In this document: positions 1,127 through 20,004 of the stretch, piece after piece | Numbering within the stretch: the stretch's first letter is position 1 | Layout of the letters: every line of letters begins with the position of its first letter | NCBI RefSeq assembly: GCF_015711645.1 | Contig: NZ_JABTEX010000001.1 | Span: 2,356,001 to 2,420,000 of the forward strand | DNA: 64,000 bases | Direction: 5' to 3' | Source of the DNA: Planomonospora sp. ID82291 | Lineage (GTDB): Bacteria > Actinomycetota > Actinomycetes > Streptosporangiales > Streptosporangiaceae | The notes under the pieces: model-generated | Databases searched by the model: none | Told to the model about the DNA's origin: nothing | The model's input: the letters and a program-made list of their open reading frames with translations, nothing else | Made by a program: the position numbers and the translations under genes

Positions 1127-1217
1127 TCGCAACACAGTACCCTACGTACGCATCTCTGACGTAAGAACGTCACTGTTTTAACGTTCCCAGCTGTCGACTT
1201 GGATCGAGGGTGAGTCT
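1127..1217. promoter_or_regulatory. Divergent dndB/dndA promoter with inverted repeat
   Basis: This 91-bp gap separates the divergent dndB and dndA starts, so both promoters must lie here or inside the genes. It contains a perfect inverted repeat at 1157-1172, TGACGT-AAGA-ACGTCA, and further ACGT cores at 1143-1149 and 1180-1184. The spacing suits an operator that controls both directions. Which regulator binds is not shown; DndB is the obvious candidate because it is a known transcriptional regulator of dnd genes elsewhere. Confidence 0.5.
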
Positions 1218-4511: not shown

Positions 4512-6053
4512 TCAAGCGGTGAGGTCGAGTTCCTCCTGGTAGCGGGCCTGGTGAACCCGACGGTGGTCTTGAGCGAGATGGAACCGCCAGTAGGCGTCGA
4601 AGTCACCGTTCGCGATCACGGCCCGGAGCGTGAGGATCGCTTCGGCACCCGCAAGACCCCAGCGGGCACCGGTGATATCGAGGCGATCGTTGACCAGATG
4701 GCGGCAGGCTCCCTCGATGACGCCGGTGGCGATCGGCCATCCGGCCGCCAACGCCTCGTCATAGCGCAGGAACGCGGCGTTGCCACGCAGATAACGGATC
4801 GCCGCGTCCACCCCGCCGCGGCGATCACGAGCCAGACCCGCGGTAGTGGCCTGGGCGTCGATGACGGCCGCAGCATCCTCGACACGGCCGGCCAGCACGG
4901 ACAGCGCATGGGTGGCGACCCAGTCCTCGGCGGCCGGATCACCGCCCGCATGCAGGCACCACGCCGCCTTCCACAGATACTCCAGGACGTGGATCACATC
5001 GATGACGACGTTGATCCGCACCCCGCGGCGCCCGGCCTCGGTATGGATGAGATCCATCTGGTGGCGGGCGCCGTCGATGAGGACCACCCAGGTCCGCGCG
5101 TGCAGCGGGTCGCGGGCCTCGGCCTGGTCGAACACCTTGGCGATCACCTCGCCGGGATCAGCGGACACCGAAGCGCACAGCCACTTGCCGCGGGCCTTGG
5201 GTCCGGGACGAGCGGGCCGGTCCCCGCTGCGGCCACCCGGGACGGCGATCACATCATGGGGCCGGCGGGGCGCGGGAGCGGCGTCGTAGACCACGCCCAG
5301 GGTGGCCATGCGCTTGCGGCAGGGCTTCTCCCCGGAGGCCAGCCGGGTGCGGAAGGTGCGCCTGCGCCGCTCGGCCGCTTTACGGGTGTCCGACCGCAAG
5401 CCCTCGGGGCGCATCACCACCCCCTTGCCGTCCACACTGATGACCAGCAGCTCCTCAGGAGTGCGCGGTAGCACGATCCGCCGGGCGTAGAAGGCGTCGA
5501 TGTCGGCCGCTCCGGCCACCACCGCCTCCTCCAGCTGCCGTTTGCCGATCACCGGCCCGCACCGGGAGACGATCGCCGCCTTGGCCGCGTCGAAGCTCCC
5601 GCGCACCGCCTCACACACCGCCAGCCGGGCCAGCCCTTGGCTATGCCGTCCGGCCGGCAGCGACAGCGCCGCATCGGCCGGGTACACATTCGGCGCGCCC
5701 GCAGCGCGCCAGGCGCACCGCGTGACGGTCACCGTCCCCACCAGCGTGGACAGCAGCCGGTGATGGCCGGTCTCCAGGCGGCGCCGCGCCACCCCGTCGG
5801 TGCCGGCCACGGCGGCGCCGGCATCGTGACGGGAGCGGACCGCCGCCCGCCGCTCCCGCTCGGCCCGCAGGTCCAGGTGGGCCTGCAGCAGCAGGCGCAG
5901 CAGCTCGCGGCCCTGCTGCACGAGCATCTCCTCCAGCACGTCATGAGTGAGCGCCGCGGTCGCGGGACCGGTGAGCTGTCCGATCAGACAGTTGAAGGTG
6001 TTCTTCGCGGATGCAAAGCAGTCAGCCATCGCGGCCGTGTCGTACTGTTCCAC
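4512..6053 (-). CDS. ISKra4-family transposase
   Basis: About 513 residues from a GTG at 6053, preceded by GGAAGAG; in-frame codons extend to 6167, and ATG 6029 is another possible start. Family features: FASAKNTFNCLIGQLTGPA near the N-terminus, ETGHHRLLSTLVGTVTVTRC, NVYPADAALSLPAGRHSQGL, a core containing LLVISVDGKGVVMRPEG (probable first catalytic Asp), WVVLIDGARHQMDLI, and a C-terminal TGVIEGACRHLVNDRLDITG block. It would move the surrounding insertion sequence. The stop codon lies just inside the left inverted repeat. The gene looks intact. Confidence 0.88.
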   Translation of the reverse strand: MEQYDTAAMADCFASAKNTFNCLIGQLTGPATAALTHDVLEEMLVQQGRELLRLLLQAHLDLRAERERRAAVRSRHDAGAAVAGTDGVARRRLETGHHRLLSTLVGTVTVTRCAWRAAGAPNVYPADAALSLPAGRHSQGLARLAVCEAVRGSFDAAKAAIVSRCGPVIGKRQLEEAVVAGAADIDAFYARRIVLPRTPEELLVISVDGKGVVMRPEGLRSDTRKAAERRRRTFRTRLASGEKPCRKRMATLGVVYDAAPAPRRPHDVIAVPGGRSGDRPARPGPKARGKWLCASVSADPGEVIAKVFDQAEARDPLHARTWVVLIDGARHQMDLIHTEAGRRGVRINVVIDVIHVLEYLWKAAWCLHAGGDPAAEDWVATHALSVLAGRVEDAAAVIDAQATTAGLARDRRGGVDAAIRYLRGNAAFLRYDEALAAGWPIATGVIEGACRHLVNDRLDITGARWGLAGAEAILTLRAVIANGDFDAYWRFHLAQDHRRVHQARYQEELDLTA

Positions 6054-6199
6054 CGGGCTCTTCCTTCTCCACCGGCTCCGGCCGGGTTCGACATGGTTGG
6101 CACCTTCGAACCTGAAGAGGAAGAGCCCTCCTGCGCAATCACCCGCCCGGTGACGCCGCGGTATCACACCCCGACGACCCGGCCGAGCCGGACCGTCCG

Positions 6200-6840: not shown

Positions 6841-7644
6841 TTAGAAGAACTCGTCCAGCAGCCGGTAGAAGGCGATGCGGCCGGGGTCGGGCGTGATGCC
6901 GTAACGGGCCAGGAATCGTTTCGCGTAGGCGGGGCCGTACTGCGGGTTCAGGTCTTCCTCGGCCAGGCTGCGGGTGGCCAGGGCCAGGTCGGCGTAGCGG
7001 TCGGCGACCCCGAGCCGGCCGGCGTCGATCACCCCGGTGACCTCCAGCGTCTCCGGGTCCAGCAGGACGTTGGGCAGGCACAGGTCGCCGTGGCAGACGA
7101 CCCGGTCCTCGACGGCGGGGACACTCGCCTCCAGGGCGGTGAGCAGCTGTTCGGCGTCCCAGCCGCGGCGCTCGTCATCGAGGTCGTCGAGGTCCACCAG
7201 ACCGGCGGTCGCAGCCTGACGGGCATGCGCGAGAGTCACCGCCAAGCCCCGGTCGAACGGACAGTCGTCGATCGGGAGCGCGTGCAGCGTGCGGGCCAGG
7301 TCGGCGAGGGCATCGACCACCGCGTCCCGCTGCCCCTGCGGCCAGGGGGCCGCGGCCGATCGGCCCGGGACCACGGTCGTCACCAGCCACATCACGCCGT
7401 CGCGGGTGCCGTGCTCGACGACCTCGGGGGCGGGGATGCCTCGGTCGCGCAGCCAGATGAGGCGCTCGGCCTCGGCGCTGAGGCAGAAGCCGCTGTCGGG
7501 GTGCTCCGGCTGCGAGGCGATCTTCGCGAAGTAGGCCGGTCGGCCGTCCAGCCGCCACACGGCCGCGCCGGACATGCCTTCCTGCACCGGGTTCCACTCG
7601 TGCCGGTGGTAGCGGCGGCGCAGCAGTCCGGGTATGCCTTCCAT
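6841..7644 (-). CDS. Aminoglycoside 3'-phosphotransferase, APH(3') type
   Basis: A protein of 267 residues that would phosphorylate the 3'-OH of kanamycin/neomycin-type aminoglycosides with ATP. Motifs: HEWNPVQEGMSGAAVWRL near the N-terminus, the catalytic loop VCHGDLCLPNVLLD, the metal-binding GVIDAGRLGVADRYADLAL, and the ending FYRLLDEFF shared with Tn5 neo and the Streptomyces fradiae enzyme. The ATG at 7644 gives the family length; in-frame codons upstream are not conserved. The TAA stop (6843-6841) touches the ISKra4 element's inverted repeat. It lies outside the AICE, next to attL. Resistance is inferred; an intact active site is visible. Confidence 0.9.
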   Translation of the reverse strand: MEGIPGLLRRRYHRHEWNPVQEGMSGAAVWRLDGRPAYFAKIASQPEHPDSGFCLSAEAERLIWLRDRGIPAPEVVEHGTRDGVMWLVTTVVPGRSAAAPWPQGQRDAVVDALADLARTLHALPIDDCPFDRGLAVTLAHARQAATAGLVDLDDLDDERRGWDAEQLLTALEASVPAVEDRVVCHGDLCLPNVLLDPETLEVTGVIDAGRLGVADRYADLALATRSLAEEDLNPQYGPAYAKRFLARYGITPDPGRIAFYRLLDEFF

Positions 7645-8123
7645 AATGATCAGCGTGCCAGACCGGCCGCACGGTCCGGAGCCGCTTCGGCAAGGAGATC
7701 GGCTCGGTGGCGGGGGAAGGATACGGCCAAGGGCTTCCCCGCGGCCGAGCGGCTGAGAAGGGGCGTGGAATCTGCCCAGCTCATCGCTGTATATCCGGAT
7801 AAGAACACCAGCTGCGGGAGAAGCGGTCCACAACCTGTGGACTACTTGCCGTTCCTGGCCGCAGAACCCGCCGTCTGGAGAAGCGGCGGCTTGGACAAGA
7901 CCCGGCCGCCGTTATGGCCTTTCCGGGCGTGGCGGCCCGGTGGGGTCTTCTGCCGTGGTCTTCCGGTGCCCGTCTGCGGGGTCTGACCTGAAGAAACGGC
8001 TCTAAATGATCTTCCGTGTGCCCGGTCCGTGCCCGCGAGCAAACATGGAGCAAACATCGCCGTTCTCCGGCTCGCGCCGAGCCCGTCTGAACCGAGAAAG
8101 CGCAGGTCAGACGGGGTGCGAGT
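7645..8123. other. Gene-free stretch left of attL
   Basis: I see no credible gene in these 479 bp. The part nearest attL resembles the integrase-side end of an integrating element. A 10-bp direct repeat GAGCAAACAT occurs at 8037-8046 and 8048-8057, and an inverted repeat CCCGTCTGA/TCAGACGGG at 8082-8090 and 8107-8115 could be a terminator. No integrase sequence precedes them. The aph promoter should lie near 7645-7750. Confidence 0.6.
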
Positions 8124-8167
8124 GGTAGGGCGCCTGGGACTCGAACCCAGAACCTACGGATTAAAAG
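8124..8167. repeat. attL, 44-bp tRNA-Lys core duplicate
   Basis: Forty-four bases identical to 19930-19973, covering the tRNA-Lys(UUU) gene from its anticodon loop to its 3' end. The sequence diverges at the next base, 8168. This fragment cannot form a tRNA; it is the duplicate left by site-specific integration. Confidence 0.92.
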
Positions 8168-8252
8168 CTCGGGCACGGGCTGTTCCGGGCAGTTCAATGC
8201 AGGTCAGAGAGTATGAGCGGTCTCTCCTGAACGACGTTGAACGCCCTGGAAC

Positions 8253-8272
8253 TGCAACGGGGATTGCAACTG
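8253..8272. promoter_or_regulatory. Candidate integrase arm-type site, left
   Basis: TGCAACGGGGATTGCAACTG is 85 bp inside attL and nearly matches 19862-19881, which lies 49 bp inside attR. Each contains two TGCAAC half-sites with 11-bp centre spacing, as expected for arm sites bound by the N-terminal domain of a tyrosine integrase. Confidence 0.5.
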
Positions 8273-8281
8273 ATCCCCGGT

Positions 8282-8545
8282 TCACCAAGGACGGGGAGGG
8301 ATGCGTCCACCGACTATCGTCCATGCGTAGTTGCATCCCCTTCCTTCCGGGCGCCACATAGTGCAGCCAAGGAAGGGGCCGTGTTCGACGCTGAACCGCT
8401 CGATGATCGTTCCGTAACCACAGAGACAGGGCATGCCTGGCGCCGCGTCGTGCCGGGGGCGTGCTGGTTGGAATGAGTAGTTCGCCGAACGAGGCCGCCG
8501 TGATCGAGAGCGGGGGTCGCCGAAGAGGATGCGGAAGAGGCCCAA
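8282..8545 (-). CDS. Small topoisomerase-type zinc-ribbon protein
   Basis: An 87-residue frame from a TTG at 8545 with GGAG at 6-bp spacing. It begins with GLFRILFGDPRSRSRRP, followed by a flexible stretch and a C-terminal module CLCGYGTIIERFSVEHGPFL-GC-x8-GC, the pattern of the C4 zinc finger at the C-terminus of type I topoisomerases (C-x-C, G-x-F-x-G-C, C). No catalytic domain is present. It sits just inside attL on the strand opposite the cargo. It may be a DNA-binding accessory protein or the remnant of a longer gene; function unknown. Confidence 0.5.
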   Translation of the reverse strand: MGLFRILFGDPRSRSRRPRSANYSFQPARPRHDAAPGMPCLCGYGTIIERFSVEHGPFLGCTMWRPEGRGCNYAWTIVGGRIPPRPW

Positions 8546-8901
8546 TGTGATCTCCGGGGAAGTCGCTACGTCCCTTACAGAGATCCTTACTGGGATCGCC
8601 ACGGTATGCAACCGCAGTGCCTCGCGGCCGTTCGGCAACCCGGCGGGCGGATGAGCGGGCCGCACGTATGGCGTTCAGTGGGCCGGTGCTGAGGAACGAA
8701 GCTCCGGACCGTCGATCGCCCCCGACCCTGGGCGGAGATCAGCCGCAGTCAGGCGATCGTGAGGGCGGTACCGGCTTCCTCGCTGGACCTGCCCGGGAGT
8801 GGCGGGGCCTGCCAAATGCCGTAGGCACCCGAAGGGCGAGTTTGGCCGGCCACGGCACGGCGGAGAGATGACCTCTGACAACAAGCCGCGATACTGAACC
8901 G
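8546..8901. other. Non-coding stretch between zinc-ribbon and APH genes
   Basis: I find no convincing gene in these 356 bp. Open frames exist but have arginine- and proline-rich, low-information translations. The divergent promoters for the flanking genes should lie here; I could not place a clear -10/-35 pair. Confidence 0.5.
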
Positions 8902-9900
8902 ATGACGATAGACGCGGCGCTGGTTGCGAGGATGTTCGACCTCGGTGAGGTCTGCTCGTCACCGCTGCTTCTTCCCGGCCACAGCCCCGCGGGTACCTGG
9001 AAGCTGCACACGACAACCGGACGGTGGGTGGTCAAGACTCTGCGGCCGTCTGAGGGCTGGGAGTTCGAGGCCATGCAGCAGGCCGGAGACCTTGAGAGGG
9101 CGGTTCTTTCGGCAGGCGTCTTGACCCCGCGCCCCGTCGAAGCGTGCGGCATCTCCGGGGGCTACTGGCTGGCCATGTCGGAAGAGCCGAAGTACGTCCG
9201 GGTCAGCGAATGGCTGGAAGGCACACAGCCGGAGATCCCGGCAAGCGAGGACCTGGCCGCCTGGCTGGGACGGAGCGTGGCGGCTATGGCGGCGGTGTCC
9301 CTGCCCGTCACCGTCGATGAGGGGCGGGGCTATCCCCTCTATCCTCTCGCCGTCTGGCATGAGTGGCTGGACAAGGCGTACGCAATGGAGATCGTCACCG
9401 CCAAGCAGCGCGCTCAACTCCTGGCGGCCGTGGCGGACGGTACGCAGCTCGTTGAAGCGGGACTTGCCACGGACTCGTCTTTCCTGCTCTGCCACCGGGA
9501 CATCAACCACCGGAACATCCTGCTCACCGCGCGGGGACCGGCGCTCATCGACTTCGACCACTCGGGGCCGGAGGTGCCGTGGTGGGAGCTGGTGCACTTC
9601 GCGTTGCTGCTGGCCTGCCGCAGTCTCGGGGATGACGAGCCTGATCCTCGTTTGGTGAAGACCGCCGTGTCGGCCTTCGTCGAGAACGGCGGTGAGGTGG
9701 GGACGGATGACGAGATCGCTTTCGCGGGCCTGATCCGCGGGATGATGGAGTGGCCGGCGTGCAGACTCATGACGCTTCTCGGCAGTGCTGAGACAGCCTC
9801 GCCGACGTGGGCTGACACCGTCGCCCAGGTGCACGAAGCCGCGGAACTCCTTCCGGTGATGGTGCGCTCTGTCGGACGATGGACCGCGCTCCTTCGCTGA
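8902..9900 (+). CDS. APH-fold kinase (phosphotransferase family)
   Basis: A protein of 332 residues with the choline/aminoglycoside kinase fold. The catalytic loop is FLLCHRDINHRNILL (Asp in HRD, Asn downstream) and the metal-binding Asp lies in ALIDFDHSG; GRWVVKTLRP near residue 40 holds the probable ATP-contacting lysine. The substrate cannot be read from sequence; it may be an antibiotic or a small metabolite. No Shine-Dalgarno sequence is obvious before the ATG. It is AICE cargo, followed by a strong hairpin at 10011-10033, so it is probably monocistronic. Confidence 0.75.
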   Translation: MTIDAALVARMFDLGEVCSSPLLLPGHSPAGTWKLHTTTGRWVVKTLRPSEGWEFEAMQQAGDLERAVLSAGVLTPRPVEACGISGGYWLAMSEEPKYVRVSEWLEGTQPEIPASEDLAAWLGRSVAAMAAVSLPVTVDEGRGYPLYPLAVWHEWLDKAYAMEIVTAKQRAQLLAAVADGTQLVEAGLATDSSFLLCHRDINHRNILLTARGPALIDFDHSGPEVPWWELVHFALLLACRSLGDDEPDPRLVKTAVSAFVENGGEVGTDDEIAFAGLIRGMMEWPACRLMTLLGSAETASPTWADTVAQVHEAAELLPVMVRSVGRWTALLR

Positions 9901-10010
9901 GAGAGTTATGAATGGGGGCATGACTGTCCTGCGCGCCGCGTGCCCGAGTGCGGCCCCGGCCGTGACCGGCCCCCAGGCCGCATGCGCGGCCGGGGTCCGC
10001 GACGAGGGCC

Positions 10011-10033
10011 GCGGCGGCGCGCAGCGCCGCCGC
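10011..10033 (+). terminator. Hairpin terminator after the APH-fold gene
   Basis: A perfect 10-bp stem, GCGGCGGCGC / GCGCCGCCGC, with a 3-nt loop, followed by CTTGATA. It separates the APH-fold gene from the TPR-membrane gene. The rest of 9901-10192 shows no gene; codons in frame with the next gene extend to 9908 but look non-coding. Confidence 0.55.
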
Positions 10034-10192
10034 CTTGATACCCATAAGAACAATTCGGCAGTGGTAGAAGTCGCGCCGTGGAAGTCGTGCGGTGCGTGTG
10101 GCGGTCCGAGGGAACCGGGGCTGTTGCGCGTAGTAGTAGGCCATGCTTTGGTGTATGGGTTGGTTGCCAAGAGAGGGAGTCAGCGTCACACC

Positions 10193-11353
10193 ATGCCGGA
10201 GAGCTCGGTCACTGAAGAGAACGGCCCCCAAGTCGGCAAGCCCAAGACACCTCAGGTGGAAATAGGCGATATCGATCAAATTTTGCTCGATGCGCAGAAG
10301 AATCAGCGGGCATCCCTGATCAAGGATTACCTTGCGAAGAATGTCGGTGATGACTCGTTAGACTGGATCGGGGAGCTTTGCGTTAAGGCCGTGAAGTATG
10401 GCCTGTCGATTCAGGAGATCCGATCGGTAGTTACGGACCTGGCTTGGATAAGTCGTGAAAAGGGTGAGCGGCTTCCTTCGGAAGCGGTTCCCATCCCCGT
10501 CTCGGCGCATCAGCACTATGACCTATACCGATTGGTGCGAGCGTACGCGCTGGGTCAGCGACTGAGGTTTGATTTCAAGTTCGATTCCCTCAGAGATGTG
10601 TCTCAGGGATGGCTGAATGATTTCGACAGCGACGCGCTGATCCTGAGCTTCGTTGCCTTTGCCGCGCTCGGCCTTCGTCAGCCTCATGGGCTCGATCTCT
10701 ATCAGAGGGCACTCGACGCTCCGGATGCCGATCGGCGGAGTCGTCATGTCTGCCTCTCCGGCATGTGGCTGGCCTATCAGGTCGAGGGGCAAGCGGAGAA
10801 GATGCTAGAGCTCTCCGGCCAGATGATGGCGAAGGGGGAGATCGATGAAAACGTCTTCTTCCGCAGGGCCTCGGCGCTCCGGAAGCTCGGGAAGTATGAA
10901 CAGGCGCTAGAAGAGATAGACCACGCAATCCACATGCTTGGAATCGGCAACAATGCTGTGCACCAAGATTATGTGCGTGAACGCGAGTCAATCATAGTCA
11001 GTATGCAGATGCGGCAGTATGCGGAATCTCTGGCTAAGTCGATCGGCAATGAGGTCGTAGAGATCGCAGAAAAAAGGATCGAGGAGGCTTCTCGATCCTT
11101 AACCCATAAAATCGAGACCGCCCAACGAGTGGTTTCGGAATCTCTGCTCAAGATCGTTGAAATCTTGGGCCTCTTTGTGACGCTCTCCGGCTTCCTGGTA
11201 GGCTCGGGAGTGGTTGTGTTCAAGGCGACTACGTTCAGTGAGCGGGCCATAGTAATGACCCTGTTCGTTGTCGGGTCGTTGATCTTCTTTACCCTGCTCC
11301 GGTTGGTGACAGGGTTCCGTAGGAGAGAGCGCCGTGAGCGACGGATCAAATAA
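10193..11353 (+). CDS. TPR/coiled-coil protein with two C-terminal membrane helices
   Basis: A protein of 386 residues from the ATG at 10193, preceded by GAGAGGGAG. I do not recognise the family. The N-terminal two thirds is helical; FFRRASALRKLGKYEQALEE is a clear TPR helix pair. Residues about 275-320 form a coiled coil (EVVEIAEKRIEEASRSLTHK). Two hydrophobic segments follow, near ILGLFVTLSGFLVGSGVVVF and VMTLFVVGSLIFFTLLRLV, with a basic tail. Both soluble parts are predicted cytoplasmic. It overlaps the DHPS-like gene by 20 bp, so the two are probably translated together. Base composition is less GC-biased than the AICE backbone, suggesting separate acquisition. Confidence 0.75.
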   Translation: MPESSVTEENGPQVGKPKTPQVEIGDIDQILLDAQKNQRASLIKDYLAKNVGDDSLDWIGELCVKAVKYGLSIQEIRSVVTDLAWISREKGERLPSEAVPIPVSAHQHYDLYRLVRAYALGQRLRFDFKFDSLRDVSQGWLNDFDSDALILSFVAFAALGLRQPHGLDLYQRALDAPDADRRSRHVCLSGMWLAYQVEGQAEKMLELSGQMMAKGEIDENVFFRRASALRKLGKYEQALEEIDHAIHMLGIGNNAVHQDYVRERESIIVSMQMRQYAESLAKSIGNEVVEIAEKRIEEASRSLTHKIETAQRVVSESLLKIVEILGLFVTLSGFLVGSGVVVFKATTFSERAIVMTLFVVGSLIFFTLLRLVTGFRRRERRERRIK

Positions 11354-12242
11354 GATTTTCTATCCCGAAATCATCTCTCCTGTTCGGAGGATCGGACAGA
11401 GGGAATTCAACTTCGATCGCCAGGTTGCGGTAATGGCGATTATTAATCGGACGCCGAACTCATTCCATGATCAAGGGCGTACGTTTGAGCTTTCAAGTGC
11501 CGTCGAAGCCGCTGAAAAGGCGGTATCCGACGGGGCGGACTGGGTCGATATCGGTGGATTCGCCTTCAGTGCGGCTCAAGCTGAGATAAGCGTTTCCGAA
11601 GAGATTGATAGAGTCGTTCCCGTCATTGAGGGGATCAGAGGTGTCACGGATGCGGTTATCTCCGTGGACACTCATCGGGCCGAAGTTGCTCGGGCGGCCT
11701 TCGCGGCCGGCGCGGATGTCCTCAACGACACGAACGGACTTCGTGATCCTGAGATCGCAGCGGCGGCGGCGGAAGCCGGGGTCAGTGTCATTGTGACTCA
11801 CAGCCTGGGCGGGCCTGGCAAGATGGTCTTCCGCCCCAGCTACAACGATGTCGTCTCCGAGGTCGCCGACTTCCTGCGGCAACGGGTCTTCCATGCACTG
11901 AACGCGGGAATCCCCGCCGATCGAATCATCATCGATCCTGGGCATGATCTGAACAAGAACACGCATCACTCGTTGGAGCTGACGAGACGGCTCACTGAGA
12001 TCACGTCGATCGGCTATCCGACCTTGGTTGCCATTTCAAACAAGGACTTCATCGGGGAGACGCTCGATCTTCCGCGAGACCAACGGCGAGAAGGAACGAT
12101 TGCGGCCAACGTCGTTTGCATCTTGCAGGGTGCTCGGATTCTCCGTGTCCATGACGTTCGCGATACCGTCGCGGCGGTTCGCATGACTGAGGCCATGCTG
12201 GGTTGGCGGGGGCCGATGGCTCCTCGCCACAACCTGGTGTGA
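11334..12242 (+). CDS. Dihydropteroate synthase homologue (FolP2-like)
   Basis: A protein of 302 residues with all main DHPS motifs: MAIINRTPNSFHDQG (canonical N-x-TPDSF with D changed to N), ISVDTHRAEVARAA, VLNDTNGL, IIIDPGHDLNKNTHHSLEL, LVAISNKDFIGETLDL and RVHDV. The GHDLNKN and SNKDFIGE variants resemble the mycobacterial FolP2 branch rather than true FolP1. It may be a sulfonamide-insensitive pterin enzyme or have another role. The GTG start has AGGAGA upstream and lies inside the TPR-membrane gene. It is AICE cargo, lower in GC than the backbone. Confidence 0.82.
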   Translation: MSDGSNKIFYPEIISPVRRIGQREFNFDRQVAVMAIINRTPNSFHDQGRTFELSSAVEAAEKAVSDGADWVDIGGFAFSAAQAEISVSEEIDRVVPVIEGIRGVTDAVISVDTHRAEVARAAFAAGADVLNDTNGLRDPEIAAAAAEAGVSVIVTHSLGGPGKMVFRPSYNDVVSEVADFLRQRVFHALNAGIPADRIIIDPGHDLNKNTHHSLELTRRLTEITSIGYPTLVAISNKDFIGETLDLPRDQRREGTIAANVVCILQGARILRVHDVRDTVAAVRMTEAMLGWRGPMAPRHNLV

Positions 12243-12598
12243 ACATTGCGACTCAGGTCGTTGAAGCAGGGGTCAACGTCGATTCCGACCAGCTATTCAG
12301 GCTTTCGGCAATGAAGACGTGGCGTTGTCCTGCATGACCAGGGGAAGATGCCGCCTGGATTTCACTCCTTCCCCGTCCCCGCGGTCTCCTCGCTTCTCTC
12401 GCTCGGTCTCGACTCCGTCTTGGGTGGGGTGGGCGGTGTGCGTCGGGGTGAACGGACACGCGCTGACGGAGTCGGGCCTTGCTCGGATTGCGAGATCGAG
12501 CACCGCGGGGGCGGGGAAGAAGGTGATCAGGAGTCGTGACGAACTCCTGATGAGGCGTGGCGGCGCCGTCCCTCCATGGCCCACGCCGCCACGCCCGT
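12243..12598. other. Convergent intergenic region
   Basis: A 356-bp stretch without a credible gene, between the ends of the DHPS-like gene (+) and the GntR operon (-). A perfect 12-bp inverted repeat at its right end is listed separately. Confidence 0.6.
12554..12595 (-). terminator. Inverted repeat ending the GntR operon
   Basis: Perfect arms GGCGTGGCGGCG (12554-12565) and CGCCGCCACGCC (12584-12595) with an 18-nt loop, 4 bp beyond the stop of the small gene that ends at 12599. No T-run, as is usual in high-GC actinomycetes. Confidence 0.5.
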
Positions 12599-12886
12599 CT
12601 ATCGGGCTCGTCCGGACAATAGGTCCGCCCAGATCGCCCGCGCTTCGTTGAGCGACCACCTCGGGGACTCGTGGATCTGGTGGCCGCCATCGGATTGGAT
12701 GGTCTTCCGGATGAACGCCTGTCCACCGCCCTCGCAGAGCTCGTAGACGGTGGCGAGACATTTGCATGTCCAGCTCACCGGGCGCACTCGTTCAAGCGTC
12801 CGGTACGGCTCTCGCCAGTCCAGCCGCGTGTGATTCCGCTGCGCCGTGGCTACGTGAGGGCTCAGGCACTCATCAAGAGCGATCAC
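12599..12886 (-). CDS. Small hypothetical protein of the AICE
   Basis: A protein of 95 residues with VSWTCKCLATVYELCEGGGQ AFIRKT in its middle (a Cys-x-Cys pair and a further Cys) and SPRWSLNEARAIWADLLSGRAR at the end. I recognise the style of a conserved small protein of actinomycete mobile elements but know no function. It overlaps the upstream gene by 14 bp, making it the third gene of the gntR operon. A metal-binding role for the cysteines is possible. Confidence 0.6.
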   Translation of the reverse strand: MIALDECLSPHVATAQRNHTRLDWREPYRTLERVRPVSWTCKCLATVYELCEGGGQAFIRKTIQSDGGHQIHESPRWSLNEARAIWADLLSGRAR

Positions 12887-13283
12887 GCGCCGTGCTCCTG
12901 ACGAGCTCGAACAAGGCGTGTTCGTCTTCCGGGTTCTTCGCGTACCGCTCCCGGCGGAGTGCTCCGTACCGGCTCGCGATGCGCTGTGCCGCGGTCAGGG
13001 GGTCCTTCGCATCGTGGTAGGCGTAGCTCCGCCGATTCGTCCTCGGGCAGTGCCGGCCGGACCACCACAGGTAGTAATCGCCGTTCGTCCACACCACGAG
13101 GTCAGCCCAGAGGGAGACCAGGGCCAGACCGTAGCCGTCGTGAACGTCGCCGATGATGCCGAGAGACCTCAGCTCGTACACGAGGGCGTCGGTGGCGAGA
13201 AGGGCCGGCGACTTCGGGGAGATGCGAGGCGGGCGCGCGTGGAACTGGGGGAGAACGAGCTCCGGGGGCGATTGGATGGTCAT
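12873..13283 (-). CDS. Hypothetical protein in gntR operon
   Basis: A protein of 136 residues from the ATG at 13283, which overlaps the gntR stop as ATGA, a sign of translational coupling. The sequence has ALLATDALVYELRSLGIIGD, GYGLALVSLWADLVVWTNGD and YYLWWSGRHCPRTNRRSYAY, then a basic helical tail. I do not recognise a domain. Its place downstream of the repressor suggests control of element maintenance or copy number, by inference only. Confidence 0.65.
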   Translation of the reverse strand: MTIQSPPELVLPQFHARPPRISPKSPALLATDALVYELRSLGIIGDVHDGYGLALVSLWADLVVWTNGDYYLWWSGRHCPRTNRRSYAYHDAKDPLTAAQRIASRYGALRRERYAKNPEDEHALFELVRSTARDRS

Positions 13284-14026
13284 TTCACAGGCACCACCTG
13301 TGTGTTGTCGATCACGAACCGGTCGCACCTGAGGATGATGATCGCGGTCTCGACGGGTACCCGGCTGTAGTGCGTCCGCTCGATCTCGAACACGGGGACG
13401 CCGACAGGAACCCTCATTTCGTGGACCTCGTCCGGGGTGGGCATGCGGGAGCGGATGCGCTCGCGTACCTCGTCCACGGGAAGGCCGATGGAGTCGAACC
13501 GAGCGATGACGTCGGGCTCATCCACGAGACCGGAAGACGGCTTCTCGATCGGCGTTCCCCTGGTCAGTGAGAGCGGTTCCCACTGGGTGCTGACCTGGAC
13601 GGTCTCCCCGTCGACGCGCCAGCGGTAGACCACTTCACTGACCATGTCGCCGTGGGGGATGTGCAGGCGGTCGGCCACCTCCGGAGACGCCTGGACCTGG
13701 CGGAACTCGGCGCTCACGTCGGCCTGCCACCCTCCGTCCTTCTCCTCCAGGCGGTTGGGCTTCTGGTCTCGGCTGTAGCGGGTGCCGGTGTAGCGAACGA
13801 GCTCGGCCCCTCCCCGGACGAAGCTGCCGCGCCCCTGCTGACTGACAACCAGTCCTTCAGCACGAAGTTGGGCGACGGCCTGCCTTGCCACGGGCTGGGA
13901 GACCCCGAACTCCTCGCGGATCTCACGCTCGGTCGGGACCTGGTCCCCCGGCGCGAGCTCCCCGCTCTTGATGCGTCGCCGTAGATGATCAGCGATCACG
14001 GCGTACTGCGGCGGTGTGATAGCCAT
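13280..14026 (-). CDS. GntR/HutC-family regulator (KorSA-like)
   Basis: About 248 residues: an N-terminal winged helix (PQYAVIADHLRRRIKSGEL, VPTEREIREEFGVSQPVARQ) and a C-terminal UTRA ligand domain of the HutC subfamily. AICE regulators of this type (KorSA in pSAM2) repress their own gene and the pra gene, keeping the element integrated. The ATG at 14026 is preferred over the adjacent GTG at 14029 because AGGAGG lies 9 bp before it. The divergent 14117 gene shares its promoter region, which holds a long palindrome. Confidence 0.85.
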   Translation of the reverse strand: MAITPPQYAVIADHLRRRIKSGELAPGDQVPTEREIREEFGVSQPVARQAVAQLRAEGLVVSQQGRGSFVRGGAELVRYTGTRYSRDQKPNRLEEKDGGWQADVSAEFRQVQASPEVADRLHIPHGDMVSEVVYRWRVDGETVQVSTQWEPLSLTRGTPIEKPSSGLVDEPDVIARFDSIGLPVDEVRERIRSRMPTPDEVHEMRVPVGVPVFEIERTHYSRVPVETAIIILRCDRFVIDNTQVVPVK

Positions 14027-14061
14027 CACACTTCACCTCCTTGTTGTTTAGATTAGCCGTA

Positions 14062-14093
14062 GTGTACTCATTAGGTTATTGTAATAAGTACAC
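14062..14093. promoter_or_regulatory. Operator palindrome for the GntR regulator
   Basis: Twelve-base arms GTGTACTCATTA and TAATAAGTACAC pair at 11 of 12 positions around an 8-bp spacer. The site lies between the divergent gntR and Pra-like genes in an AT-rich patch, the expected position for auto-repression and control of excision and replication. Confidence 0.65.
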
Positions 14094-14116
14094 GAACCCA
14101 GCATCACGGAGGACAG

Positions 14117-14542
14117 ATGGCTCTGCAAGGTCCGATCCCGGTCAACTTCGACCAGGTCTTCCCGCACGGCTGCTACCTCGTCGGGGAGGTGGAGCAGGTC
14201 AAGGACTTCACCGCCTCGACCAACGGCCGGACCGTCTACGCCAAGGACAAGACGACCGGCGAACTCGTCTGGCAGGTCGCGGTGATGGACGCCGACCCGG
14301 CCGTGAAGATCAGCCAGAAGACGGTTGCGGTCAAGATCCTCGCCCCGGTCCAGCCGGTTCCGCCGTCCCCGGTGCCCGGTCTACCGATCATCCCCGTCGA
14401 GTTCGACGGCATGACCGTCACGCCGTACGTCGCTCAGACCACGGGGCGGCTGGCCTACTCGATCCGGGCCACGGGCATGCGGGCTCCCCGCGCTGCTGCG
14501 GCCCCGGCGAAGGCTCCGGCCGGCAAGGACGTGGCGGCATGA
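14117..14542 (+). CDS. Pra-like replication/integration/excision activator
   Basis: A protein of 141 residues beginning MALQGPIPVNFDQVFPHGCY and containing VMDADPAVK, KTVAVKILAPVQPVPP, IIPVEFDGMTVTPYV and AYSIRATGMRAP. This is a conserved family of actinomycete AICEs, commonly annotated as activator of plasmid replication, integration and excision (Pra in pSAM2). That assignment is from memory of the family and less certain than the conservation. A good ribosome site (GGAGGAC) precedes the ATG. It overlaps the next gene by ATGA. Confidence 0.65.
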   Translation: MALQGPIPVNFDQVFPHGCYLVGEVEQVKDFTASTNGRTVYAKDKTTGELVWQVAVMDADPAVKISQKTVAVKILAPVQPVPPSPVPGLPIIPVEFDGMTVTPYVAQTTGRLAYSIRATGMRAPRAAAAPAKAPAGKDVAA

Positions 14543-14847
14543 AGAAGCGCAAGCCGTACACCTACGTCACTGCATCGATCGACGAGGAGGGAACCCGGTT
14601 CAGCATCGCCTTCCACACGCCTGACCTGTCGGTCGCAGCGATGGGAGCCGAGAGCGGTCGGCCCTTCCTGAACATCTCCAGCGCTGAGGCGGCCGTGGTG
14701 ATCACGGTTCCGGGCTGTGAGGAGGTCACCGAGCAGGACGTGACCCTGGCGCGCGAGATCGTCAACGCGGCCACGCGCTACCTGGCCGACTGCGAGCGCC
14801 TGCACGCCGAACAGTTCGCCGTCTCCGCCGACGAGAACGCGGCCTGA
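14539..14847 (+). CDS. Small AICE protein, unknown function
   Basis: A protein of 102 residues whose ATG overlaps the Pra-like stop codon (ATGA). The N-terminus KKRKPYTYVTASIDEEGTRF is followed by a beta-rich centre and a helical end, EIVNAATRYLADCERLHAEQ. I do not recognise a domain. It is followed by a perfect hairpin at 14857-14888. Confidence 0.65.
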   Translation: MKKRKPYTYVTASIDEEGTRFSIAFHTPDLSVAAMGAESGRPFLNISSAEAAVVITVPGCEEVTEQDVTLAREIVNAATRYLADCERLHAEQFAVSADENAA

Positions 14848-14856
14848 CATGCAAGC

Positions 14857-14888
14857 GGGGCCGCTGGAACTGGCATTCCGGCGGCCCC
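14857..14888 (+). terminator. Hairpin between the Pra operon and the transfer gene
   Basis: Arms GGGGCCGC (14857-14864) and GCGGCCCC (14881-14888) around a 16-nt loop that can extend the stem. It probably ends or attenuates transcription before the FtsK-like gene. Confidence 0.45.
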
Positions 14889-14934
14889 TCGGTTCTCCCC
14901 AGACACCAAATCAAGGAAGAGGACTCAAGCTTAG

Positions 14935-16356
14935 ATGCTCCGAAGACTGCCCGGTGAAGAGGCCCGCGGCCTCGTCTCAACGACTCCTGACACGGCGGTG
15001 GTGTTCCGTCCGGCCGTCGTCCGCACTCCCGCGATCGTCACCATCGTCATCTTCCTCTGGCGGGTGCTCGCCGGCCTGGTCCGCCTGGTCTGGCGTCACC
15101 CGATCGCGGTCTCTGCCGTCGCCGTACCCGCCGCGGTGGCGTGGCTGTACGGCTGGCGCCTCGGCCTGGTCGTGCTCTGGGCTCCCTTCGCGGTCCTGGC
15201 GGTCTGGGCGCTGGTTCACCGGGACTCGTTCAAGAGCTGGGTCGGCTGGCGGCTCGTCGCCTTCTGGCGGCTGCTGTGGGTCTACCGGAGGCACTGGCAA
15301 CCGGTGATGGTGGTCTCCGGCCTGAGCCGTTCCCACAAGGGCCGTGACTACATGCCGGGCCTCGTGCGGGTCCGCTGCACCTCGTGGGCCGATCTCGTCA
15401 CGGTCAAGATGCTGCACGGTCAGGCGGTCAAGGACTGGGCCGACCGGATCGAACACCTCGCGCACGGCTTCGGCGCGACCTCCTGCCGGGTCACCGTGCA
15501 ACGGTCGGGCCGTCTGGTGCTGACCTTCCCCCGGCATGACCCGCTGGCCGAACCGCTGCCCGCCGTCCCGCTACCTGACGTGGCCTCGGTCGGACCGGTT
15601 GAGATCGGGCGGTGCGAGGACGGCACGCCGTACCGGCTCAACGTCCACGGCACTCACGTTCTCATCGCCGGTGCGACCGGGTCGGGTAAGGGCTCCTTCC
15701 TGTGGTCGGCGGTCCGCGGTCTCATTCCGGCCATGTGGACGGGCCTGGCTGAGGTCTGGGCGCTGGACCCCAAACGGATGGAACTGTCCTTCGGCCGTGA
15801 GCTGTTCGGGAAGCGCTACGCCGCCGATCCGGCCGCTTGCGCCGATCTCCTCGATGAGGCCGTGAGGATCATGCAGGAGCGGGCCGACCGGTTCGCCGGA
15901 GTCCGGCGCAACCACATCCCCACCGTGGAAGACCCGTTCATCCTCGTCATCGTTGACGAGGTCGCGTTCCTGACCGCCTACCAGTCCGACCGGACCTTGA
16001 AACAGCGCATCTCCGCGGCCCTGGCCACCCTGACCACGCAGGGGCGGGCGGTCGGCATCGGTGTCATGGCGGCTCTCCAGGACCCGCGTAAGGACGTGCT
16101 CACGATCCGGAACCTGTTCCCCGACAAGATCGCGCTTCGGCTGGACGAGTCCGAACAGGTGGACATGGTCCTCGGCGACGGCGCTCGGGACCGCGGCGCG
16201 CTGGCCGATCACATCTCGTCCATCCCCGAGCGGGGCGCGGGTGTCGGCTACGTGCGGCGGGAGACCTCGCCCGACCCGATCCGGGTCCGCGCGGCCTACG
16301 TCTCCGACACCGACATCCGCGACATGGTCGCCCTGTTCACAGAGGACGCAGCCTGA
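14935..16356 (+). CDS. FtsK/SpoIIIE-like transfer ATPase (TraB-type)
   Basis: A protein of 473 residues. Two hydrophobic segments lie near residues 32-52 and 58-92. The ATPase domain has Walker A GATGSGKG at 246-253 and Walker B FILVIVDEVAF at 335-345, then TLTTQGRAVGIGVMAALQDP and RNLFPDKIALRLDE, typical of FtsK/SpoIIIE motors. In AICEs a single such protein moves double-stranded DNA between mycelial cells. The downstream small gene overlaps by one base (TGATG). It is the only evident transfer gene in the element; no Spd spread genes are recognised. Confidence 0.85.
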   Translation: MLRRLPGEEARGLVSTTPDTAVVFRPAVVRTPAIVTIVIFLWRVLAGLVRLVWRHPIAVSAVAVPAAVAWLYGWRLGLVVLWAPFAVLAVWALVHRDSFKSWVGWRLVAFWRLLWVYRRHWQPVMVVSGLSRSHKGRDYMPGLVRVRCTSWADLVTVKMLHGQAVKDWADRIEHLAHGFGATSCRVTVQRSGRLVLTFPRHDPLAEPLPAVPLPDVASVGPVEIGRCEDGTPYRLNVHGTHVLIAGATGSGKGSFLWSAVRGLIPAMWTGLAEVWALDPKRMELSFGRELFGKRYAADPAACADLLDEAVRIMQERADRFAGVRRNHIPTVEDPFILVIVDEVAFLTAYQSDRTLKQRISAALATLTTQGRAVGIGVMAALQDPRKDVLTIRNLFPDKIALRLDESEQVDMVLGDGARDRGALADHISSIPERGAGVGYVRRETSPDPIRVRAAYVSDTDIRDMVALFTEDAA

Positions 16357-16550
16357 TGAAGATCACCATTCACGGCACTCAGGCCGACATCGACGCCCTG
16401 CCCTTCCGCCGGCTGCGGGCCTCCGACGGCTCCGACCTCGGTGAGGTCGTCTTGGTCATCGATCTGAACTCCGCCCAGCTTCGCAAAGACCCCTACAGCG
16501 ATGCCTACCGGCTCTGCGTCGATCTGGTGGACCCTCAGGAGGTCATGTGA
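16356..16550 (+). CDS. Small protein between transfer ATPase and rep
   Basis: A protein of 64 residues, beginning MKITIHGTQADIDALPFRRL. The start overlaps the ATPase stop as TGATG, and its own stop overlaps the rep start as GTGA, so all three genes are translationally coupled. Small proteins of this position and length are common in actinomycete AICEs; the function is unknown. Confidence 0.65.
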   Translation: MKITIHGTQADIDALPFRRLRASDGSDLGEVVLVIDLNSAQLRKDPYSDAYRLCVDLVDPQEVM

Positions 16551-18280
16551 CCGACCTGGCCCCCGTCCCTCCTACCTCCCCGATCGAGACCTTGCCGGAC
16601 GCCTCTGATCGGAACCTTCCCCGCCTCGTCCGCGGCAGCCTCCCTCTGGCCCTGGACGTGGCGGTGGAGGTCGCCAAGCTCAACGGCGTGTGCATCCGCC
16701 CGATCGAGATGCGGCGGCTCGACACCCTGACCGGCAAGAGCGAACCGTTCGACATCCCCTGCGGGGCCACGCAGGAGGCGAAGTGCCCGCCGTGCGCCAA
16801 GCGGAACAAGCAGCTCCGCAAGGCCCAGTGTCGGGAGGGCTGGCACCTGGACGCCGAACCGATCAGCGAACCGAACCCCTCGACGGAGGAGCAGCGGTGG
16901 CTGATCGAGTTCCGGGCCGACGTGCAGGCCAAGCGCGATGCGGCCGAACGCGACGGCGAAGAGGTCGCCGACTGGGACGAGGCGATCCAGGCCGTTGACG
17001 CCGAGATCAACGCCGCGGGCATGCGGGGCAACGTGCTGGGCGGGCGGACGGTCCCCAAGCGCTCCCGCTCGACCCGGAGGCGGCAGGATGCCCCGGACCT
17101 GCCCAAGCGGGCCAGGGAGAACACCACGCTCGGCCGGACCTTCATCGACCAGGGCGGCAGGGTCTACCGGCCGTCGATGTTCATCACGCTGACCCTGCCC
17201 TCCTACGGGCGGATCTGGTCCGGACAAGGCGTGCCGGCAGACCCGGCGAACTACGACTACGCCCGTGCCGCGCGCGACGCCCTGCACTTCTCCAAGCTGG
17301 TGGACCGGTTCGTGCAGAACCTCCGGCGCGTGGCGGGCTATGACGTGCAGTACTTCGCCACCGTGGAGCCTCAGAAGCGGCTCGCCCCCCATCTGCACAT
17401 GGCGATCCGGGGCACCCTGCCCCGTGCGGAGATCAAGCAGATCGCCGCCGCGACGTACCACCAAGTGTGGTGGCCGGCGGTTGATGAAGTCCGCTTCGAG
17501 GGTGACCACCTCCCGGTCTGGACCCCGCGGGCCGACCTGGGCGACGGCACGGTCTACCCGGACGGGCAGAGCGGCGACTACCTCGACCCTGAAACGGGGG
17601 AACTGCTGCCCACCTGGGATGACGCGCTCGACCAGCTCGACCAGGACGACGACGCCGAACCCCTGCACGTCCTGCGCTTCGGCTCGCAGGTCGATGTTCA
17701 AGGCGTGCTCGCCGGAACCCCGGATGCCGACCAGTGCATCCGCTACCTGTCCAAGTACCTGACCAAGAGCCTCGGTGACACCCTCGACCCCGACGAGCCT
17801 GGTTATAAGGCACGGCGCGACCACGCGGCCCGCATGGTGGAAGCGCTGCGCTACGAACCCTGCTCGCCGACGTGCCCGAACTGGCTGCGCTACGGCGTGC
17901 AGCCCAAGGGCGCCAAGGCCGGGATGGCTCCGGGCCGGTGCCGGGGCAAGGCGCACAAGCCCGAACACCTCGGCTACGCGGGCCGCCGCGTGCTCGTCTC
18001 CCGCAAGTGGTCGAACAAGACGCTCCGGGAGCACAAGGCCGACCGGCGGGCCTGGGTCCTCGACATGCTCGGCCTCGCCGACGACTCCGCCGAGAACGAC
18101 CCGCACCGCTACATCTGGCGGCCGGTCTCCACGAAAGATCCGACCCGTACCCCGCTTGCTCTGCGGCTCCTGCGAGGTGTCGCCGACCGGCAACGCACCC
18201 GCGCGCGGCTCCTCGAACTCCAGGCCAGAGCTGAAGGAAAACCGATCGGAGATCTTTCGGCAATCGGAGAGGCGGCCTGA
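16547..18280 (+). CDS. HUH rolling-circle replication initiator (RepSA-like)
   Basis: A protein of 577 residues. The catalytic core is in order: MFITLTLPSYG at 211-221, the metal-binding HUH motif PHLHMAIRG (H282 and H284), and the tyrosine motif RYLSKYLTKS (Y399 and Y403). Near the N-terminus a cysteine pair, CPPC, and later CSPTCPNW may bind zinc. This is the plasmid-type initiator of pSAM2-like AICEs, which replicate by rolling circle after excision. The GTG start overlaps the upstream stop and has AGGAGG before it. The excisionase follows after one base. Confidence 0.85.
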   Translation: MTDLAPVPPTSPIETLPDASDRNLPRLVRGSLPLALDVAVEVAKLNGVCIRPIEMRRLDTLTGKSEPFDIPCGATQEAKCPPCAKRNKQLRKAQCREGWHLDAEPISEPNPSTEEQRWLIEFRADVQAKRDAAERDGEEVADWDEAIQAVDAEINAAGMRGNVLGGRTVPKRSRSTRRRQDAPDLPKRARENTTLGRTFIDQGGRVYRPSMFITLTLPSYGRIWSGQGVPADPANYDYARAARDALHFSKLVDRFVQNLRRVAGYDVQYFATVEPQKRLAPHLHMAIRGTLPRAEIKQIAAATYHQVWWPAVDEVRFEGDHLPVWTPRADLGDGTVYPDGQSGDYLDPETGELLPTWDDALDQLDQDDDAEPLHVLRFGSQVDVQGVLAGTPDADQCIRYLSKYLTKSLGDTLDPDEPGYKARRDHAARMVEALRYEPCSPTCPNWLRYGVQPKGAKAGMAPGRCRGKAHKPEHLGYAGRRVLVSRKWSNKTLREHKADRRAWVLDMLGLADDSAENDPHRYIWRPVSTKDPTRTPLALRLLRGVADRQRTRARLLELQARAEGKPIGDLSAIGEAA

Positions 18281-18281
18281 C

Positions 18282-18485
18282 ATGGAACCACTGTTCTACC
18301 GGGCGAAGGACGCGGCCCTCATCCTCGGCATCAGCCGTACGGCCGTCTTCCGCCTGATCAAGACGGGTGAACTCAAGTCGATCAAGAAGGAGGGATACCG
18401 CCTGGTCCCTCGGTGGGCGCTCTACGAGTTCGCCCGTGAGCTGGAGGCCAAGGCGGGCCTTTCACCGGAGGAGGAGGCGGCCTGA
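18282..18485 (+). CDS. xis: Excisionase (MerR-type helix-turn-helix)
   Basis: A protein of 67 residues: [20 protein letters not shown] is the helix-turn-helix, followed by [20 protein letters not shown], the wing of the excisionase family. It should bend DNA at the attachment site and favour excision by the integrase. It starts one base after the rep stop and overlaps the int start as TGATG, the standard rep-xis-int order. Confidence 0.9.
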
Positions 18486-19840
18486 TGGCCACGAGGAAGC
18501 CCAACAGCCGGTCCTCGATCTACCTCGGCAAGGACGGCAAGTGGCACGGCTGGGTGACGATGGGCGTCAAGGACGACGGCACCCCCGATCGCCGACACCG
18601 TGAGGGCAAGACGGAAGCCGAGGTCACCGCGAAGGTTCGGGAACTGGAGCAGAAACGCGACTCCGGGAAGACGACCAAGTCGGGGAAGGTGCCCACGGTC
18701 GGCCAGTGGATGCGGACCTACATCAACGAGATCGCTCCCATGCGGGTCAGTCAGCTCACGATCGACAGCACGTATCGGCCGAAGGTGGAACGGTGGATCA
18801 TTCCCCGGCTCGGCGCGCACCGGCTGGACCGTCTCCGGCCGGAGCACCTGGACGCCTTCTATACCGGGCTCGTCAAGGAGGGTTTGGCGCCCAACACGAT
18901 CGTGCAGATTCACCGCATCCTGTCGCGGGCTCTCAAGCTCGCCGTCCGGAGAGAGCTCGTCGCGCGCAACGTCTGCAGCATGATCGACGCGCCGACCGGT
19001 GAGGACACCGAGATAGAGCCGCTTCTCCGGGAGGAGGCACAAGACATCCTCGACGTGGTCAAGGAGCGGCGCAACGGCACGCGCTGGTCGGTGGCTCTGG
19101 CGCTGGGACTTCGGCAATCGGAGTCGCTGGGCATGCGCTGGAAGTATGTGGACCTGGACAAGGGCGTGATCCGGGTCTTCTGGCAGATCAAGCGACTTCG
19201 CTACCGGCACGGCTGCAAGGACCCGAACGCCTGCGGCGCTCGCCTCCACCGCTACCCGTGCCCGAAGGACTGCCCCAAGGCCAAGCGCACCTCTGGCCGG
19301 CGGCACACCTGCCTCACCGCGTGCCGCAAGAACTGCACGAAGCACGGGGGAGCGTGCCCGAAGTTCTGCGCCCCGGACTGCGCCAACCACGCCGTGGCCT
19401 GTCCGGACCGTACCGGCGGTTGGACGTTCATCAAGCCGAAGGGCAAGGGCAAGCGCTCCATCGCCCTGCCGTCTCCTCTCGTGGCGCTCCTCAAGCTCCA
19501 CCGTCAGGCGCAGGACGTCGAACGTGAGGCGGCGGGGGACAAGTGGCAGGACTGGGACCTCGTGTGGTGCATGCCGGACGGGAGCCCCATCGACGCCGGG
19601 GACGACTGGGACGAGTGGAAAGAGATCCTTGGACTCGCCGAGATCGACAAGGACGCCCGCGTTCACGACGCGCGCCACACCGCGGCGACGCTCCTCCTCG
19701 AACAGGGCGTGGACATCCGGGTGGTTCAGGCGGTGCTCGGGCACTCCCAGCTCACCACGACGAAGCGGTACACCCACATCACGGAGACCCTGGCGAGTGA
19801 GGCGGCGGCTCGGATGGGGCGGGCGCTGTGGGACGCCTGA
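18485..19840 (+). CDS. int: Tyrosine integrase with cysteine-rich insertion
   Basis: A protein of 451 residues catalysing integration at tRNA-Lys. The N-terminal arm-binding domain ([15 protein letters not shown]) is followed by a SAM-like core ([20 protein letters not shown]) and the catalytic domain with R210, H394, R397, H420 and the nucleophile Y429 (TTTKRYTHI). Between the first catalytic block and the beta-sheet lysine region, residues about 244-306 form an insertion with 11 cysteines in C-x2-5-C spacings, a likely zinc-binding module. The gene ends 89 bp before attR. Confidence 0.92.
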
Positions 19841-19861
19841 CGGCAACGTGACAGCAACGAA

Positions 19862-19881
19862 TGCAACGGGAAATGCAACTG
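19862..19881. promoter_or_regulatory. Candidate integrase arm-type site, right
   Basis: TGCAACGGGAAATGCAACTG matches the left site at 8253-8272 except in the three central bases. A further AGCAAC precedes it at 19852. It lies between int and attR. Confidence 0.5.
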
Positions 19882-19921
19882 GGCGGGCTCCCCGATCAAG
19901 AAGATTGGGGAGTCCGCCCAG
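19879..19921 (+). terminator. Terminator after integrase
   Basis: Fifteen-base arms (19879-19893 and 19907-19921) pair at 14 positions around a 13-nt loop. It ends the rep-xis-int transcript just before the tRNA-Lys gene, which is on the other strand. Confidence 0.75.
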
Positions 19922-19929
19922 TTCAGCGA

Positions 19930-19973
19930 GGTAGGGCGCCTGGGACTCGAACCCAGAACCTACGGATTAAAAG
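19930..19973. repeat. attR, 44-bp core within tRNA-Lys
   Basis: Identical to attL at 8124-8167. It covers the tRNA from anticodon loop to 3' end, so the tRNA stays intact after integration. Confidence 0.92.
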
Positions 19974-20004
19974 TCCGCAGCTCTAACCATTGAGCTAACG
20001 CCCC
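19932..20004 (-). tRNA. tRNA-Lys (anticodon UUU)
   Basis: A 73-nt cloverleaf on the minus strand. The acceptor stem GGGGCGT pairs with GCGCCCT with end G-U pairs, the anticodon loop is CTTTTAA and the T-arm is CTGGGTTCGAGTCCCAG. CC follows the discriminator A, but the last A of CCA is not encoded. It is the attachment site of the AICE. Confidence 0.95.

Follow-up and report, generated by a model that had tools for sequence, protein, structure and literature searches.

Two overlapping genes on the forward strand of the window, a 64,000-nucleotide stretch of the Planomonospora sp. ID82291 genome (contig NZ_JABTEX010000001.1, 2,356,001 to 2,420,000), encode a TPR-like protein, P0001, and a homologue of dihydropteroate synthase (DHPS), P0002, which we call FolP3 (Table 1). 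Both open reading frames and their overlap lie where a sequence-only reading of this DNA had placed them. The pair is cargo of an 11.85-kb AICE (8124-19973) delimited by two 44-bp att repeats, exact copies of each other, at a tRNA-Lys gene, and both genes are less GC-rich (~0.56-0.575) than the AICE backbone (0.65-0.72), as that reading had also held.

Table 1 Features of the TPR-FolP3 pair and of the element that carries it
Feature	Position	Strand	Basis
attL, 44-bp direct repeat of the tRNA-Lys 3' part	8124..8167	+	Exact repeat
APH/choline-kinase-like phosphotransferase, second cargo gene	8902..9900	+	PF01636, 3.5e-19
TPR-like solenoid protein P0001, 386 aa	10193..11353	+	ORF; AlphaFold2 model; fold search; relatives in 16 other genomes of the order
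Two predicted membrane helices of P0001, ~residues 320-372	11150..11308	+	Homologue hydropathy; model helices 254-344 and 348-385
20-bp overlap of the TPR and FolP3 genes	11334..11353	+	Sequence; same overlap in M. siamensis homologue
DHPS homologue FolP3, P0002, 302 aa, GTG start	11334..12242	+	Pterin_bind; NCBIfam DHPS; 2vp8; tree; active-site columns
GntR/UTRA regulator	13280..14029	-	PF00392, PF07702
FtsK/TraB-type transfer protein	14935..16356	+	NCBIfam TraB (weak, under the cut-off); seven pair-bearing genomes have relatives
Replication-initiator-like protein	16547..18280	+	ORF; relatives beside other TraB genes
Tyrosine integrase beside attR	18485..19840	+	NCBIfam tyrosine recombinases
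attR, 44-bp direct repeat inside tRNA-Lys (19930-20004)	19930..19973	+	Exact repeat

The carrier was classed as an AICE on the presence of an integrase, att repeats at a tRNA gene and a TraB-type gene, the last by a weak match below the cut-off. Its tRNA att repeats, tyrosine integrase, Rep, TraB and GntR are those of pSAM2-like AICEs, the replication-initiator-like protein being named after the established anatomy of these elements; the pair is cargo and not part of this backbone. The cargo consists of the pair and the APH-like kinase, which also adjoins the pair in Microbispora siamensis (86% at the amino acid level), in inverted orientation. The kinase gene shares 89% nucleotide identity with its M. 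siamensis counterpart (L024 6820-7818) compared with 70-71% for the pair, which marks an exchange later than that of the pair.

Within the overlap, GGAGAGAG precedes the GTG start of FolP3, and this arrangement suggests that the two genes are translationally coupled. The homologous M. siamensis genes (L024/L005) overlap by an identical length. Between the two copies, dN is 0.17 for the TPR gene and 0.13 for FolP3 while dS is saturated, which indicates purifying selection on both genes. Candidate sigma-70 promoters and terminators around the pair showed no excess over shuffles.

P0002 matches Pterin_bind (PF00809) at 6e-68 and the NCBIfam DHPS model (TIGR01496) with 272 bits (cut-off 162.6). 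Its closest solved relative is FolP2 of M. tuberculosis (PDB 2vp8), and its model compares with DHPS structures as a Pterin_bind TIM barrel (TM 0.74-0.82 by query length). The earlier assignment to the FolP2 branch holds insofar as FolP2 is the nearest relative, but not as regards membership. Specifically, a 100/100 branch of length 1.19 splits the FolP2 set from FolP3 in the tree, and a profile of TPR-paired copies sets the FolP3 clade (~395-570 bits) apart from ordinary FolP2 (~275-300 bits). By sequence comparison, FolP3 is best described as a FolP2-like clade that is sister to FolP2 and outside it. The window genome also carries a true FolP2 (L002, contig C10) and a canonical FolP1 (L003) elsewhere. 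FolP3 is present in 57 of 295 genomes of the family, mostly without the TPR gene, as well as in other families of the class.

Across 57 FolP3 sequences, N22, D56, N115, D185, K221, R255 and H257 on the pterin side are invariant, and position 96 varies between D and E, the window copy having D. On the p-aminobenzoate side, T62 is replaced by F in 56/57 and F188, G189, F190 and R220 by H, D, L and N, respectively, in 57/57; R63 is mostly lost, so that none of T62, R63, F190 and R220 is generally kept. These columns indicate an active site whose pterin side is intact and whose p-aminobenzoate side has been replaced. FolP (EC 2.5.1.15) has the same barrel and pterin-side residues and differs from FolP3 on the p-aminobenzoate side. 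FolP2 of the M. tuberculosis Rv1207 type is closer, sharing F188 to H, G189 to D, mostly R220 to N and the loss of T62 and R63. It differs, however, in having A at position 62 where FolP3 has F, in keeping F190 where FolP3 has L, and in forming a separate clade, whereas FolP3 is mobile and TPR-paired in the family of the window.

With regard to the partner protein, the AlphaFold2 model of P0001 (pLDDT 84.5) comprises a helical solenoid (residues 24-248), a 90-residue helix (254-344) and a second helix (348-385), these C-terminal helices bearing two hydrophobic segments. Hydropathy predicts two TM segments in nearly all TPR homologues, and two C-terminal hydrophobic segments are kept in most of the distant relatives (26-32%) from other families. 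The model and homologue hydropathy thus bear out the two C-terminal membrane helices that had been predicted from the sequence alone. Pfam TPR matches of P0001 are weak and below cut-off (17.8 bits vs a gathering score of 27.8). TPR chains top the fold search with the model (Z up to 12.2), although Z near 13 is nothing unusual for helical repeats, and for the TPR part the search returned generic TPR matches only. Modelling supports P0001 being a helical TPR-type solenoid. One scan of genome contigs for relatives gave M. siamensis as its sole match. Plasmid matches were rejected as shorter Streptomyces TPR proteins (~300 aa) with no DHPS gene among their annotated neighbours.

A full or near-full TPR relative occurs in 15 of 297 genomes of the family, one with a disturbed N-terminus, and an order-wide search added two genomes (G660 and G650) for a total of 17. 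If the two genes form a system, as had been proposed, they should recur together, and they do: FolP3 lies directly downstream of the TPR gene on the same strand in 13 of the 17. Among the 12 pairs found first, order and strand are constant (12/12) and the spacing runs from -26 to +201 bp. An Rv2671-type RibD_C gene is directly upstream of the TPR gene, on the same strand, in three of the other four (G109, G089 and G650), and the last genome (G269) has neither partner near its TPR gene and FolP3 with RibD_C elsewhere. The two later genomes, with the orders TPR-FolP3-RibD_C-GT2 (G660) and RibD_C-TPR (G650), played no part in defining the pattern, yet fit it.

The TPR and FolP3 distance matrices agree closely (Mantel r 0.90, p 5e-5, 11 loci, with no housekeeping-gene baseline). 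The window pair shares 55% and 62% identity with that of G283, whereas identity falls to 41% and 47% between G283 and G239, which belong to one genus. This agreement, together with cross-genus pairs that are closer than within-genus ones, suggests that the two genes moved between genera as a unit. A TraB gene lies within about 10 kb in 7/13 pair genomes; the pair also occurs in chromosomal loci without TraB within that distance (L056, L061, L062 and L065), and four g37 genomes have one chromosomal place in common. The TPR-FolP3 pair is therefore one conserved operon that is recurrent, co-evolving and often mobilised by AICEs.

The TPR-paired FolP3 copies do not form one clade. At least five changes are forced on the tree, a count inflated by about one: the tree leaves out one FolP3 (L006) and labels one FolP2 row (L053) as TPR-paired, both being right in the residue table. 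The TPR gene was thus gained or lost repeatedly, and TPR remnants in two FolP3 carriers (G223 and G271) indicate losses. As further observations, G239 has the pair and AICE genes on two contigs (L059 and L066) with equal match scores and a Tn3-type transposase near one, and a family of 100-140 aa without a Pfam match (c5; L056 11158-11568 and relatives) recurs beside FolP3, both with and without TPR.

In several relatives the system exceeds two genes, through a RibD_C reductase and a GT2 glycosyltransferase. Of the 20 class-wide loci, 12 have RibD_C beside FolP3, mostly in the absence of TPR, and four further TPR-free loci of this kind lie within the family. A large FolP3-RibD_C group occupies a fixed chromosomal place, where an FAD oxidoreductase gene lies upstream and genes for a two-component system and a helicase are close by. 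The closest solved relative of RibD_C is Rv2671 (1.6e-37), a 'pyrimidine reductase' type that the literature discusses as a DHFR analogue, and the RibD_C partner forms its own subclade below the NCBIfam pyrimidine-reductase cut-offs. GT2 lies by the TPR cassette in 7/17 TPR genomes and in none of the FolP3-only contexts examined; in other families it stands beside the TPR gene in 10/20 distant loci, without FolP3. Identity between the two GT2 groups is only about 34%, and GT2 is a large superfamily. In our synthesis, the cassettes of this family seem to unite two older associations, TPR-GT2 and FolP3-RibD_C. In one FolP2 locus (L116 1468-3188), a FolP2-type gene overlaps a RibD_C gene, so the link between DHPS paralogues and RibD_C reaches beyond FolP3. 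Among the distant TPR relatives, the TPR-2TM gene of L069 (7698-12196) shares an overlapping operon with genes for RibD_C, an asparagine-synthase-like protein and an alpha/beta hydrolase. The AICE of the window carries neither RibD_C nor GT2. In the rest of the genome, a single RibD_C (45%) occurs on a different contig and all GT2 matches are weak; the pair would thus need partners from the host. The proposal of a new two-gene system accordingly stands as to recurrence and co-evolution, and a literature search found no description of the combination, but not as to the limit of two genes.

We propose, at a probability of roughly 45%, that the pair is a membrane-tethered module of a pterin side pathway. 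FolP3 would still bind activated 7,8-dihydropterin and would condense it with an acceptor other than p-aminobenzoate, or act on the pterin otherwise. The TPR protein, anchored by its two C-terminal membrane helices, would hold FolP3 at the cytoplasmic membrane face and, in the fuller cassettes, the Rv2671-type reductase and GT2 as well, the whole forming a pterin route that would run alongside the DHPS and DHFR steps of folate synthesis. Physical contact, recruitment to the membrane, reaction chemistry and product are inferred here. In folate synthesis, DHFR follows DHPS with only a single glutamylation in between (PMC1971073), and a parallel route with another acceptor is suggested by the intact pterin side, the rebuilt second-substrate side and the adjacent DHFR-like reductase. 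M. leprae folP2 fails to complement folP, and a role of FolP2 in another pathway was already foreseen in 2007 (PMC1971073). Nonetheless, most FolP3 genes have no adjacent TPR gene, which counts against this reading, as do the missing RibD_C and GT2 genes on the window's AICE, the change of D96 to E in a FolP3 subclade and the low identity between the GT2 groups.

It is unlikely that FolP3 is instead a pterin/nucleotide sensor or signal maker, with the TPR-2TM protein as a membrane effector that depolarises or arrests the cell when phages attack or elements compete. A long helix followed by two C-terminal TM helices may recall membrane effectors in outline, the pair is AICE cargo in seven of the 13 pair genomes as judged by nearby TraB, and TPR copies are degenerate in some genomes. 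However, PADLOC-DB gave 0 families at E<=1 for P0001 and P0002, and a PADLOC scan of 46 neighbours yielded just a few matches of regulator and methyltransferase type, none to a specific known defence system. TPR relatives were also absent from the viral contigs and phage records searched, and the common chromosomal place in the g37 genomes is at odds with this explanation. Elsewhere the same FolP3 clade stands with RibD_C alone at a fixed chromosomal place, an arrangement that looks metabolic. The defence or toxin-like signalling that had been suggested for the pair thus gained no support; for a defence role, which is possible, only AICE carriage and the two-helix outline speak.

It is also unlikely that FolP3, though binding pterin, has no catalytic activity and serves the TPR protein as a regulatory or structural partner. 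The rebuilt p-aminobenzoate side would fit, as would the change of D96 to E in 7/12 TPR-paired copies; in a subclade with this change, catalysis could be altered or lost. All other catalytic-side residues are nevertheless invariant in the 57 sequences, and FolP3 shares an operon with a reductase in many genomes. We regard as quite unlikely a mobile signalling or immune module in which FolP3 (with RibD_C where present) would make or sense a non-folate pterin conjugate, a pterin messenger read by the TPR-2TM protein at the membrane.

Antifolate or sulfonamide resistance, with FolP3 replacing an inhibited DHPS and, in fuller cassettes, RibD_C replacing DHFR, is improbable. The cassette does bring together two folate-enzyme look-alikes on a mobile element, one of them of the type discussed as a DHFR analogue, and sulfa resistance evolved in E. 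coli maps most often to T62 (PMC10328974). Like Sul1-4, FolP3 is a mobile DHPS homologue. Sul enzymes, however, are defined by an inserted Phe-Gly that falls between positions 186 and 189 of the E. coli enzyme (PMC10328974), and FolP3 aligns with E. coli DHPS ungapped and therefore lacks it. P0002 also stays far below the NCBIfam Sul cut-offs (114 of 600 bits for Sul1, 188 of 600 for Sul4), and the loss of F190, R220 and mostly R63 goes beyond a change at T62. The failure of the related M. leprae FolP2 to complement folP points the same way, and resistance would leave the TPR protein unexplained. The idea of plain sulfonamide resistance is thus disfavoured. Finally, ordinary AICE upkeep (spread or entry exclusion) is highly improbable: the pair adjoins the GntR-TraB-Rep block in several elements, but the same pair occurs in the chromosomal loci without nearby TraB.

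All of the parts have known folds; the novelty lies in the mobile module that holds a FolP2-like paralogue and stops short of a proven new kind of system. The findings address the question of the physiological roles of actinobacterial FolP2-type DHPS paralogues and Rv2671-type DHFR look-alikes. Small mobile cassettes that tie a FolP2-like clade to a membrane TPR protein, a reductase and a glycosyltransferase offer a compact genetic handle on it, in the form of a two-gene operon, and the pterin side pathway that the pair hints at is one not yet described. A folP gene on a mobile element, moreover, is not necessarily a sulfonamide-resistance gene.

Gene lists beyond the pair are approximate, since low-GC genes escape the gene finder and some starts are placed too far upstream. 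Beyond attL and attR, three more copies of the att core occur up to 38 kb leftward, giving five tandem copies of the tRNA-Lys core over ~38 kb (G000:C7 2337755-2375973), so that this place is a tandem accretion array of integrated islands. To the left of the AICE, window positions 1-3786 hold dndB (TIGR03233), a divergent dndA cysteine desulfurase and a DNA-phosphorothioation-associated methyltransferase (TIGR04096). An ISKra4-family transposase (4512-6167) separates these from an APH(3')-family aminoglycoside phosphotransferase gene on the reverse strand (6841-7833; 293 bits vs an equivalog cut-off of 205, and below the APH(3')-V exception cut-off). Since the AICE starts at 8124, the dnd and APH(3') genes lie outside it, in the neighbouring segment.
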